From an uncultured Porphyromonadaceae bacterium (GTDB lineage Bacteria > Bacteroidota > Bacteroidia > Bacteroidales > Muribaculaceae): 64,000 nucleotides of DNA. How positions within the stretch are numbered: the first letter of the stretch is position 1; each line of letters opens with the position of its first letter. Location: NCBI GenBank assembly GCA_947649495.1, contig CANSRU010000011.1:1-64000 (forward strand). The letters are read 5' to 3'. A program made the position numbers and the translations under genes. Below, in pieces: positions 1-4,181 of the stretch. The notes beneath the pieces were generated by a model. The model did no database searches, was not told where the DNA came from, and saw only the letters and a program-made list of their open reading frames with translations.

Positions 1-1126
1 GCTTGATGTTGCCGTCCTTTGTCAGCCACGAGGACTGTTGCTGACCCTGACTGTTGCCTTGCTGCTGGTTCTGCTCCTGTCGTCGCACGCCGCCGGGTAC
101 AAATTCGACGCCCTTGCGGTCGGCTGACACCTGCAACACCACATTGTAGGTCTTGCCATTCTTGTCGGTAATCTGTTTAGGCGGGAGGGCTTTCCCTTTC
201 TTCAGTTCGCTTATTTCAGCCATAGTCAGTTTTGTCTGCCCGATGGTGTCCTTGATGAACACGGCCTTTACGGGCACCGACACAATCTCGTTGGTTAGAC
301 GGTCAACGCTGACATAGGAGGGCTTGACTTCCCCGGTGGCTTTGTCAACAAGGTCAACGACCTTGCCCAGATTGCCGGTTGTTTTCAGAGCCTCTTTATC
401 TTCCTTTGTGAACTTGTACCCCTCAAACTCTTGGTCGAGTTTGGGCTCGCGGTGTATGAAATGGGGCACCACCTTCACATTGCCGTCGGCATCGGTTCTG
501 AAAGAGAGTCGTGCGTCAATCGGGAATTTCTCCCCACCGAAATTGGGCGTGACGGTCACAATCTGCGACTTGCGGTTGTAGAGCATCTCGCGGAGGTCGC
601 CCGACTTTTCAAGCTGGTCGCGGTCTATGCCCCATTTCTCCTTGAGCATCGTCCAGTCGATTTTGCTTTCGTCGATGGCGTGATACTTTGGCTGTTCAGT
701 CTGTGCAGCCTGTTCCTCCGCCGGCTTCTGCGCCTGAGTTTCGGTCGCCTTATTCTCCTGAGCCTGTTCCTTGACGTTTGTCTGCGTCTGCTGGGGAACA
801 TCGACCTTGAAGTCTTTGAGAATTTCAGCGTTTGTTTCGGGATCCTTGATAAAGTCACACATTGCCATGCCAACACAATCGTAACGATCGGCAGGAACTT
901 TGAAGAATCCGAACATAGTGGGGTTCTTGCATTGTCTGACAAAATTTGACAAGAACGCTTCCAGCGGATTTTGTCCTTTCTTAAATTTTACGAGATCCTC
1001 CAGTGTGACGAACATTGGATCGGTGATTTTGGGTGTGCCGTCCTCATTGAGTCCGGTCACTGCGCCTACCTGCCCGGTTTCGTTGTTCCGGACAATCAGC
1101 ACTTCTTCATTCTGGTCTTTTGCCAT
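1..1126 (-). CDS. DUF3945-type mobile-element protein (3' part beyond window)
   Basis: This open frame has no stop before the left edge, so the ORF track misses it; the C-terminus lies outside the window. It starts MAKDQNEEVLIVRN and continues with an N-terminal block (NETGQVGAVTGLN, then NPLEAFLSNFVRQ) that I recognise from DUF3945 proteins of Bacteroidetes conjugative and integrative elements. A Gln/Glu/Ala-rich linker follows around residues 110-145, then a block with a DUF4099/DUF3945 look (IDWTMLKEKWGI, residues ~150-300), ending in a Gln-rich stretch at the window edge. The molecular function of the family is not established. It sits on the same strand as the integrase and two DNA-binding genes, which marks it as element cargo. 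The ATG at 1126 is the first in frame and is followed directly by the conserved start of the family. Confidence 0.8.
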   Translation of the reverse strand, partial: MAKDQNEEVLIVRNNETGQVGAVTGLNEDGTPKITDPMFVTLEDLVKFKKGQNPLEAFLSNFVRQCKNPTMFGFFKVPADRYDCVGMAMCDFIKDPETNAEILKDFKVDVPQQTQTNVKEQAQENKATETQAQKPAEEQAAQTEQPKYHAIDESKIDWTMLKEKWGIDRDQLEKSGDLREMLYNRKSQIVTVTPNFGGEKFPIDARLSFRTDADGNVKVVPHFIHREPKLDQEFEGYKFTKEDKEALKTTGNLGKVVDLVDKATGEVKPSYVSVDRLTNEIVSVPVKAVFIKDTIGQTKLTMAEISELKKGKALPPKQITDKNGKTYNVVLQVSADRKGVEFVPGGVRRQEQNQQQGNSQGQQQSSWLTKDGNIK

Positions 1127-1195
1127 AATTAAAAGAATTTTGGGTTAGAAACTTGCGCCGTTGCCGACGCGATAATTATTGTGTGTATGGATTGT

Positions 1196-1504
1196 CTATG
1201 CGTTGCGCAATGCGAAAAACTCAATCACATCTATGATGCGGTACTTGATTTTGGAATTTTTGGCGTTGCCGGTCTTGATAAACGGTAGTTCTCCGCTGGC
1301 CCGATACTCATATAGTTGCCTTTCGGAAATGCCATAATGTCTGCAAACCTCGGCGGTTGACATGGTATCTTTGTCCGGGTCTATGATGCCGAGCCCTTTG
1401 AGAGCGTCAAACATATTTTTCGCAAAGCGGTCAATCTTTCCCGACAATGAAGTTTCCATCGACTTTATCAGCTGGCATAGCTGGCGGTATTCTACGGAGT
1501 TCAT
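1196..1504 (-). CDS. Small helix-turn-helix protein, excisionase/MerR-like
   Basis: A 102-residue protein. The N-terminal half is probably helical (SGKIDRFAKNMFDALKGLG). The C-terminal half is a winged-helix DNA-binding domain of the HTH_17 / excisionase type: MSTAEVCRHYGISERQLYEY, then a basic wing (FIKTGNAKNSKIKYR) leading into IDVIEFFALRNA. Proteins of this kind accompany tyrosine integrases in Bacteroidetes elements and act as recombination directionality factors or local repressors. Which role applies here cannot be told from sequence. The start codon overlaps the stop of the upstream gene (ATGA, 1501-1504), so the two are translationally coupled, both downstream of and collinear with the integrase. 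Confidence 0.75.
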   Translation of the reverse strand: MNSVEYRQLCQLIKSMETSLSGKIDRFAKNMFDALKGLGIIDPDKDTMSTAEVCRHYGISERQLYEYRASGELPFIKTGNAKNSKIKYRIIDVIEFFALRNA

Positions 1505-1866
1505 CGTACTGTTGGGATTTTACGGTTGGACTTCTTGATTTCATCCAGTACCGCCTCGCTCCACTTTAATTGAAGACGGGCTATTGCTTTTAGAATAGGT
1601 GCAAGATGATAGTAAACCTCACGTCCGCGTTCCTCCCATGTGAGCCGGTATTTGTGGCGGACACGTTGCAGTTGTCTGGTTGACATTTTCAGCAGTCTTG
1701 CAGCTATTGAGTTTGGTATAGGCGGAATGGATGATATTTCATCACACTCGTTCTTCAACTCTTTTTTCTTTCGTTCCTCTTTTGTGAGTAGCTCAAGAAT
1801 CAAGGTCAGCGTTTCTTCAAGCGTGACCGTTCTTTGGTAGAGGGTTTCCAGTGTAATTGTTTCCAT
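1501..1866 (-). CDS. Small mobile-element DNA-binding protein (putative)
   Basis: The track ORF begins at 1926, but I prefer the internal Met at 1866 (METITLETLYQ). It is preceded by the same 16-nt leader sequence that precedes the integrase start. The resulting protein has about 121 residues: an acidic/helical first half with a Lys/Glu-rich stretch (TKEERKKKELKNE), then a helix-turn-helix-like segment (IAARLLKMSTRQLQRVRHKY) and a Tyr/basic segment (WEERGREVYYH). It resembles the second small HTH protein commonly found beside Bacteroidetes integrases; I cannot assign a named family. It overlaps the next gene by 4 nt. A role in excision or regulation of the element is inference from position. 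Confidence 0.6.
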   Translation of the reverse strand: METITLETLYQRTVTLEETLTLILELLTKEERKKKELKNECDEISSIPPIPNSIAARLLKMSTRQLQRVRHKYRLTWEERGREVYYHLAPILKAIARLQLKWSEAVLDEIKKSNRKIPTVR

Positions 1867-1875
1867 AAATTGTTT

Positions 1876-1891
1876 CTTGGATTTAGTGTTA
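1876..1891 (-). repeat. 16-nt leader repeat, copy 1
   Basis: On the minus strand this reads taacactaaatccaag and ends 9 nt before the ATG of the small DNA-binding gene. An identical copy lies just before the integrase start (3271-3286). It may be a shared translational or regulatory leader. Confidence 0.75.
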
Positions 1892-2046
1892 CGCTGGCAA
1901 AGTTCGGCATTCAGCAAAAGGTGCATAAGGTAGTTCCCGAGGTACTACCCTGATATTTTAACTTTCGTTAAGTGTTTCAATAAAAGACAAAGTGCCGGCC
2001 ATTGATATATAGCCGACACTTTATCAGTGAATTAGCGGTATATCAA

Positions 2047-3264
2047 CTAAAAATTGAGAGAGCCGAGATTTTGTGCGAGGTTTTCCATGTCCTTGCTGAT
2101 TTTCTCATTCGTGATTCGTGCATAGATTTGGGTGGTCTGGATATTTGTATGCCCCAGCATCTTACTGACCGACTCGATAGGTACACCCTTACCGAGCGTC
2201 ATGGTCGTGGCAAACGTATGCCGCGCCAGATGAAACGTGAGATTCTTCTCAATCCCACAAATATCCGCAATCTCCTTCAGGTAGCAGTTGAGTTTTTGGT
2301 TGGTAATGATGGGCATCAACTGTCCATCGAGATACTTGCCCTCATACTTTTTCAGTATTTTGAGAGCCGGAGGCAGGAGTGGAACTGTCACCTTGGTGTT
2401 GGTCTTCTGACGATGGGTGACAATCCACAGTCGGCCGTCGAACATCTTTTGGATATTATCGACACGGAGATGAGCGAGGTCGATGTAAGCCAGTCCAGTA
2501 AAGCAAGCGAAGATGAACACATCGCGCACTTGCTCCAGTCTGACAGAGCCAAACTCCTTTGCCATCATTTTTGAAAGTTCATCTTCCGTGAGATAGCCGC
2601 GGTCAACTCTCTCGCAACTGATTTTATAACCGTTGAAAGGGTCAACGAAAATCAGTCCGGCACGAATGCCTTTGTTGATTACCTGCTTGAAGAACTTCAT
2701 ACACTTGTAAGTGGTATTCTGCGAATACTTGTATTCCGTGCGAAGGAAAAACTCCAGATCGGTGATGAAGGAGGTCTTGATTTCTCGCAGGGGAATGTCT
2801 GTTATGTTGTATTTCTTCTTCATAAACTCCACCACACGGCGGTACATCCGCTCATATTTTCTATAGGTGGGATCGGCTTTGCTTAGGCCGACGAGCTTCT
2901 TGGTGTCTTCCAGATGCTGGAGGTAAAGTGGTACGAGAGATTCCTCTTTGGCGGTAACACCTGTAAAGGCATTCTTCACCATCTCCGCAGTCACATAGCC
3001 GTGACGATTGAGGATGTCGTAGTAGTGTTCCTTTAGAACGACTCTCATATCTTCAAGTCGTTTATTTATTTCAAGGACTTTGGCTGAACGACCAATGGCT
3101 TTACCAGCTTTTACGTCCCATAGTTCCGGCTCTACTGACAGAGTGGAGTTGATTCTTGCATACTCGCCGTTCACCGCTATACGTACTGTGATAGGGCACT
3201 TCCCATCCTTGTTGGTATAGTTGCCACGGATATGATAAAGAATCTTGAATGTGTTCTTTTTCAT
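2047..3264 (-). CDS. Tyrosine site-specific integrase of a mobile element
   Basis: A 405-residue phage/ICE-type tyrosine recombinase. It has an arm-binding N-terminal region (ITVRIAVNGEYARINSTLSV), a SAM-like core-binding domain (residues ~110-210) and a catalytic domain (~220-395). Catalytic residues visible: H345 and R348 in HLARHTF, H372 in LGHTNIQTTQ and the nucleophile Y381 in QIYARI. In the position of the first catalytic arginine the protein reads FTGLAYIDLAHL, so the usual Arg of TGLR is Ala. Bacteroidetes integrases related to IntDOT are known to lack the canonical first Arg, so this is a family trait rather than inactivation. The gene points away from ssrA, with about 500 bp of non-coding DNA between its start and the ssrA 3' end, the standard layout of an element integrated at that gene. 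Confidence 0.92.
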   Translation of the reverse strand: MKKNTFKILYHIRGNYTNKDGKCPITVRIAVNGEYARINSTLSVEPELWDVKAGKAIGRSAKVLEINKRLEDMRVVLKEHYYDILNRHGYVTAEMVKNAFTGVTAKEESLVPLYLQHLEDTKKLVGLSKADPTYRKYERMYRRVVEFMKKKYNITDIPLREIKTSFITDLEFFLRTEYKYSQNTTYKCMKFFKQVINKGIRAGLIFVDPFNGYKISCERVDRGYLTEDELSKMMAKEFGSVRLEQVRDVFIFACFTGLAYIDLAHLRVDNIQKMFDGRLWIVTHRQKTNTKVTVPLLPPALKILKKYEGKYLDGQLMPIITNQKLNCYLKEIADICGIEKNLTFHLARHTFATTMTLGKGVPIESVSKMLGHTNIQTTQIYARITNEKISKDMENLAQNLGSLNF

Positions 3265-3270
3265 TTCTTC

Positions 3271-3286
3271 CTTGGATTTAGTGTTA
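3271..3286 (-). repeat. 16-nt leader repeat, copy 2
   Basis: Identical on the minus strand to the sequence at 1876-1891 (taacactaaatccaag). Here it ends 6 nt before the integrase ATG. Confidence 0.75.
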
Positions 3287-3590
3287 TCATGAAGACGATT
3301 TCACCCGGCTTCGATATGATAACAAGTTTAACTTCTTGTCCGATTGGACGCTTTGAAGTCAAACATCAGACATATCAGCGACTTACGTCATTTTTAACAT
3401 GTCAGACATTTATACGACACTATGTAAAAGCCTGTCTGTATCAAGGCTTATCACAATATATCGGAAATCTGTGTCGGCACTTACTTTAACATCCATAGAT
3501 TCTGCTGTTAAAATGTCGCCTAAAATTCCGAGTTGCGTCTGAGTTAGGTCTTAGGAAGATATTGAACACCAATTTATTACACCGTTATCG

Positions 3591-3619
3591 GTCACATTTT
3601 TGTCACAATTCTCGTCACA
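3591..3619. repeat. Three phased GTCACA repeats
   Basis: GTCACA occurs at 3591, 3602 and 3614, spaced 11 and 12 bp, so all three lie on one face of the helix. Their place between the integrase and ssrA suggests integrase arm-type or accessory-factor sites; this is inference. Confidence 0.45.
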
Positions 3620-3711
3620 AGAATTCTTGAAACGATTTGGTGACGAATAGTGGTCTGAGGAGGTCTTAACTTGGTCTGAAATCGGTCCTGAATCCGATAG
3701 GATAAGACACG

Positions 3712-3746
3712 AAAAAACCTCGGAACTATCTGATAGTCCGAGGTTT
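3712..3746 (-). terminator. Terminator downstream of ssrA
   Basis: On the minus strand: stem AAACCTCGGA / TCCGAGGTTT enclosing a secondary CTATCAGATAG dyad, followed by a run of T. It lies 37 nt past the mature tmRNA end. If the element recombined within the ssrA 3' end, this terminator belongs to the element. Confidence 0.8.
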
Positions 3747-3782
3747 GTCTCGTATTGTCCGAATTAGGTCGGATGCCATAAG

Positions 3783-4181
3783 TGGAGCTGGAGGGACTCG
3801 AACCCTCGTCCAAACGCGGAACTAATGTGCTTTCTACATGCTTAGCTTTTACTTGGTTTTCGTGTTGCGGCAGGCAAAAAGCGACCAACCGCAGCCTTAT
3901 CCTCTAAAATTTCGGATGCTTCGCGAGGCTTTCAGCATCCTATTCCCGATTTACCTGCACCGCCTTGTCGATTAGTCTCGGAAAAAGGACAATCGGGCGA
4001 TGTCTTGTCGCTGCAACTGTTGCGGCGATTAAGCGTAATCTACTATACTTCGATTAGGCAGCAAGAGCGTAGTTGTTTTCGCCATTTAAAAAAGTCGATG
4101 TCGGAGATTATAGAGCACCTTCCATCATGGCTCTGCATGCTTACACACCACTTCTACACGCTGTCAAAACCAGTCAACCCC
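3783..4181 (-). ncRNA. ssrA: tmRNA (SsrA), about 399 nt
   Basis: Transfer-messenger RNA that rescues stalled ribosomes and tags nascent peptides. The 5' end GGGGTTG pairs with CAGCTCC at the 3' end (one G-U, one U-G pair) as the acceptor stem. The T-arm GAGGGTTCGAGTCCCTC-like sequence lies just inside the 3' end, and the discriminator A is at 3783. CCA is not encoded, since the next bases are CTT. The tag frame reads GGC GAA AAC AAC TAC GCT CTT GCT GCC TAA, giving (A)GENNYALAA, close to the AGETNYALAA tag I recall for Bacteroides. The ORFs the track lists across this region (3592-3888, 4005-4187, and the 5' half of 4073-5938) are chance readings of this RNA. The mature 5' end is about 40 nt downstream of the promoter, so an RNase P-processed leader is expected. 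Confidence 0.95.

Follow-up and report, generated by a model that had tools for sequence, protein, structure and literature searches.

A ssrA-inserted integrative element, most likely a CTnDOT/TraG-type ICE, at the start of a Muribaculaceae contig

The window, here the whole 64,000-nt stretch of DNA that was analysed, opens with the first base of a contig (C11) from a genome assembled to 2.45 Mb in 34 contigs, and the nearest named relatives bearing related integrases are Muribaculaceae and neighbouring Bacteroidales. At its left end lies a run of genes that a sequence-only reading had described as a tyrosine integrase, two small genes and a DUF3945 gene on the minus strand, separated from the 3′ end of ssrA by about 500 bp of non-coding DNA (Table 1). 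Domain searches bear out this arrangement, with all genes on the minus strand, and the non-coding stretch measures 517 bp from the integrase start (3264) to the ssrA end (3782). The integrase carries the arm, core-binding and catalytic domains. The small gene that follows it has no Pfam or NCBIfam match with either of its possible starts. The DUF4099/DUF3945 gene is truncated here, and in a relative where its homologue is complete a topoisomerase-like gene comes next. Within the non-coding stretch, the CRGAC-type repeats are probable protein-binding sites, as judged from their sequence and conservation.

Table 1. Features of the ssrA-proximal end of the element (window coordinates).
Feature	Position	Strand	Basis or remark
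ssrA (tmRNA), integration target	3782-4181	(-)	ARAGORN; Rfam RF00023, 133 bits
attR core, last 17 nt of ssrA, AGTCCCTCCAGCTCCAC	3782-3798	(-)	exact repeat at C17:411-427 (attL)
Element-borne rho-independent terminator just past ssrA, CCTCGGACTATCAGATAGTTCCGAGG-TTTTTT	3712-3743	(-)	folding and alignment of related right ends
Four CRGAC-type repeats, 10-12 bp spacing	3652-3691	(-)	sequence and alignment; conserved in related elements
Motif X cluster, GTCACCA-type, direct and inverted copies (putative arm-type sites)	3590-3646	(-)	function inferred
Tyrosine integrase, 405 aa	2047-3264	(-)	Arm-DNA-bind_5, Phage_int_SAM_5, Phage_integrase
Small gene, 121 aa from second ATG or 141 aa from first	1501-1866 or 1501-1926	(-)	
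HTH_17 gene, putative Xis/RDF	1196-1504	(-)	weak TIGR01764 excisionase-family match, below cut-off
DUF4099+DUF3945 gene	2-1126	(-)	open at window start, cut by contig end

The far junction had been predicted to lie to the left of the window. The direction holds, but the junction cannot be reached there, as the contig itself starts at window base 1, and it is found instead on another contig, C17. A search of this genome with the last bases of ssrA places the expected direct repeat of the ssrA 3′ end at C17:411-427, where AGTCCCTCCAGCTCCAC matches at 17 of 17 positions. The assembly contains exactly two copies of the 15-mer TCCCTCCAGCTCCAC, against about 0.005 chance matches expected by our own arithmetic, and a reversed control gives none. 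Past the repeat, C17 continues with AAAAAAAGCTCGCTTATGCGAGCTTTTTTT, a terminator like those found after ssrA in relatives such as G009, and then with chromosomal-looking genes. C17 aligns with the left ends of ssrA elements elsewhere over positions 1-427 and no further, and positions 428-3000 match none of these elements. The displaced ssrA fragment has the same orientation as the gene, on a separate contig. Following the direction of ssrA, one meets the gene itself, then element DNA (C11, leftward), the gap, further element DNA (C17:1-410), att and the native terminator. The part of the element that falls in the gap is absent from the assembly. Comparison of the ends of C11 and C17 with contigs C18-C34 gave no linking overlap (C34 consists entirely of N), and no synteny between the native genes of C17 and ssrA was found in the genus.

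Comparison with genomes lacking the element, also proposed at the outset, gives a clear answer in the family and a weak one in the species itself. A left-end pattern built from a few examples and scanned across 397 family genomes gives 39 matches in 35 of them, and its reversed control none. The sequence that follows attL in filled genomes equals the sequence that follows ssrA in empty ones, starting from the first base (99% over 115 bp for L174 against the empty L222; 93% over 101 bp for L122 against the empty L019; further pairs agree). For the C17 flank the corresponding match to an empty-site flank is weak (76% over 42 bp), and no syntenic empty ssrA site was found in the genus. Two bins (G026 with L019/L179; G214 with L222/L168) hold an empty ssrA site together with an attL, their native flanks being 85-88% similar; these are perhaps mixtures of strains or species. 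In two other genomes (L030 in G009; L025 in G005) the ssrA 3′ end is repeated, in partly decayed form, about 80-110 bp downstream of ssrA with no adjacent element, perhaps the scar of an older insertion.

How specific is the integrase for this gene? The 49 integrase loci taken from genome contigs form two main sets. Integrases at least 80% identical to that of the window lie about 510 bp from the ssrA 3′ end wherever the flank is long enough; most of those at 50-69% identity adjoin a tRNA-Ser gene. In the tree, the 20 ssrA integrases group in a single clade (support 95/96), whose sister clade uses tRNA-Ser. Wherever the flank allows a check, integrases of the ssrA clade adjoin ssrA and no other site, in favour of the original reading. 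Identity to the core-binding domain of the window integrase is 88-100% in the ssrA clade and 50-57% in the tRNA-Ser elements, and across targets this domain tracks the target. The ssrA integrases at four loci (L061, L063, L064 and L075) are identical or nearly so, and the corresponding records bear the names Heminiphilus, Muribaculaceae, Bacteroidaceae and Palleniella (Prevotellaceae). The occurrence of near-identical integrases in different families points to recent transfer, as expected of mobile DNA.

A strong terminator hairpin stands directly past ssrA in every related element and is kept in all 22 right ends that were folded. Its stems vary with compensated changes (CCTCGGA, CCGCAGA, CCGCACA and CCTCAGA types), and it ends in a T run in the sense of ssrA. 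Since insertion carries the native terminator to the far end, the element-borne hairpin would seem to stand in for it and so preserve ssrA expression. The position of strand exchange can also be narrowed. In attL copies the loop sequence ACAAGT is nearly constant before CCCTCCANCTCCAC, whereas host T-loops vary, which argues for an exchange within the final 13-14 nt, right of the T-loop; strand exchange would then probably take place within CCCTCCANCTCCAC. The variable acceptor-stem base of attL differs from the host base in about nine cases and agrees in others, and with these mixed signals the crossover is claimed only as a window.

Both ends of the related elements also carry copies of a short motif, here called motif X. 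The right cluster lies about 125-190 nt past ssrA, with direct and inverted copies at a pitch of about 11 bp, and at the left end two direct copies precede att by a little less than 100 bp. The motif reads GTCACCA at the right end in the window and GGCACTA, GTTACCA, GTTACAC, GTTACTA, GTTGCAA/GCTACAC or GTGGCA elsewhere, these strings having been set by eye after the data were seen, while an automatic search missed several elements. The two ends of an element tend to share the motif. In a small set of 13 ssrA integrases, the distance between X motifs correlates with the distance over residues 1-100 (r=0.645, p=0.0002, Mantel test, shared ancestry not removed) and not with that over the catalytic domain (r=-0.18). 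The N-terminal domain has a mean distance of 0.335 in this set, against 0.081 for the core-binding and 0.114 for the catalytic domain. Motif X is most simply read as a candidate arm-type site of the integrase, bound by the N-terminal domain. It is possible, at somewhat less than an even chance, that the docking site at ssrA has stayed fixed in the clade while the arm-type sites at both ends and the N-terminal arm domain have repeatedly changed together. If so, the core would set the docking place and the arm code which element moves, allowing elements to be stacked without cross-excision. Co-variation of this kind would offer a simple, testable rule for how elements keep their independence at a common attachment site, and would supply natural integrases that combine one core target with different arm specificities. 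It is put forward as a hypothesis worth testing, not as a result.

Taken together, the gene order, the 17-bp att repeat on C17, the homology of both ends to ssrA elements and the empty sites in relatives make it very probable that the region is attR, the integrase-proximal end of an integrative element (most likely a CTnDOT/TraG-type ICE) that an ssrA-dedicated integrase has placed at the 3′ end of ssrA. In the proposed mechanism, Int would join the attP site of the element's circular form to the end of ssrA and leave ssrA complete. The native terminator would shift to the far junction, and the element would supply its substitute about 40-70 nt past the gene. The N-terminal domain of Int may bind the motif X clusters at both ends, and the HTH_17 protein would act as the excisionase. 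The predicted circle junction has the left end TTTGGAGCGTTGGGAACAAG...CTCCAC joined to TTATGGCATCC.

The nature of the element is best judged from a complete relative in Barnesiella sp. WM24, which spans 88.3 kb from ssrA to attL on a single contig. It encodes the same integrase and DUF4099/DUF3945 genes, followed by a topoisomerase-like protein, a large methylase/helicase-like protein, MobA/B/C, ParA, TraG, TraJ, TraM, TraN, TraO, a primase-like protein and a type I restriction system, with profile matches to TIGR03783, TIGR03779, TIGR03780, CtnDOT_TraJ, TraO and Bacteroid_MobB/C. The large protein of this 88-kb ICE (L102:11974-18051) has 2025 aa, with a MutS domain I between its methylase-like and helicase-like parts. 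Homologues of TraG and of the 2025-aa helicase occur nowhere in the window genome's assembly, which misses the interior of the element, and its small contigs hold no convincing homologues of the other interior genes. One match to the 2025-aa protein, on C21, was set aside: it is confined to the MutS-like part and probably represents MutS itself. By comparison with the 88-kb relative, the window element is most probably a Bacteroidales ICE of the CTnDOT/TraG type, its transfer functions being presumed from that relative.

Do the ends on C11 and C17 belong to a single element? The right end is of the GTCACCA type and the left end on C17 of the GGCACTA type, so there may be two stacked elements or one mosaic. 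Left and right motifs agree in five cases (G114/G061, G176/G065, G017, G029 and G091), differ in the window genome and in G253, and are ambiguous in G437; only G114/G061 is a proven contiguous, complete element, the ends in the other genomes lying on different contigs. In G065, whose integrase is 96% identical, a GTCACCA-type left end runs directly into a GGCACTA-type right end, which is the order that two stacked elements would have here. Among the 31 left ends examined in the family, about half likewise pass from att straight into the integrase end of another element, and at L085 an integrase gene lies just past such a junction, although some of these joins could be circle junctions instead of arrays. 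These observations favour two or more tandem elements at ssrA, the window holding an inner right end and C17 the outer left end. But the assembly has no third att core, and C17 is itself a patchwork in which 1-54 and 107-261 resemble GTCACCA-type left ends and only the last ~170 bp are of the GGCACTA type, which could also fit one mosaic element. The ends on C11 and C17 may therefore belong to different elements, and the tandem arrangement, a refinement of the attR reading, is about evenly balanced against its alternatives.

Other irregular arrangements occur at ssrA in the family. In G166 (L238, C1:139400-154200) two opposite att copies lie about 9.8 kb apart downstream of ssrA, together with an integrase fragment of ~75 aa, an inverted or decayed array. 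In G061 (L124, C37:91530) a contig other than that of ssrA holds an att copy whose left end is of the GTCACCA type, along with a degenerate integrase end. There are also ssrA-att cassettes of about 1.2-2.9 kb with no integrase (L240, L241, L243 and L239, in G287, G086, G381 and G087). They contain an AbiLi/AbiLii pair (G287), a PDC-S01-like AAA_14/DUF4143 gene (G086) and a PDC-M64B-like gene (G381) with a close homologue in G087, and they look like non-autonomous defence-gene cassettes using ssrA att sites. ssrA emerges as a docking site common to ICEs and small defence-gene cassettes in Muribaculaceae.

Alternatively, the window copy may be no active ICE but a mobilisable element, or the remnant of an island that has decayed and is immobile. 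The C17 left end lacks ~0.8 kb found in a relative and has a stop in a remnant of an HTH gene, the assembly contains no tra gene, and short or integrase-less att-flanked cassettes do occur at ssrA in relatives. This is nevertheless rather unlikely, given an intact integrase, an intact Xis-like gene and two intact att cores, and given the spread of near-identical clade integrases across families, a sign of recent transfer. A temperate phage is very improbable: integration at ssrA is common (Islander, PMC4383910), but the DUF4099/DUF3945 neighbour and the mob and tra genes of the complete relative speak against it.

Integrative elements that target tDNA are already known as a kind, and the attR reading places the window element among them, probably as an ICE. 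The literature searched contained no Bacteroidales ssrA case, which does not prove that none has been published. What the analysis adds is the far end on C17, an integrase clade dedicated to ssrA, a terminator brought by the element, the frequency of stacking and the co-variation of arm motif and arm domain proposed above. Among Islander-class islands, tRNA and tmRNA 3′ ends are targeted and tandem arrays are known (PMC4383910). The window element resembles them in that a tyrosine integrase adjoins the tmRNA gene, a 3′ fragment in the same orientation is displaced to the far end (here on the other contig) and family relatives have empty sites. It differs in an att identity of only 17 bp, with the exchange apparently near the very 3′ end. 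The tRNA-Ser(cga) sister clade shares the domain layout and the arrangement of terminator and motif X cluster, and differs in the core-binding domain. The likeness to CTnDOT-type ICEs is seen in the complete ssrA relative, which carries TraG/TraM/TraN/TraO with MobABC and has the integrase, DUF4099/DUF3945 and topoisomerase-like genes in one run. A relaxase, a coupling protein and a TraG-family T4SS are present in that relative; in the window genome they would fall in the missing interior, TraG being absent from the assembly. Differently to those ICEs, the ssrA element has a single dedicated target and an integrase of a separate clade.
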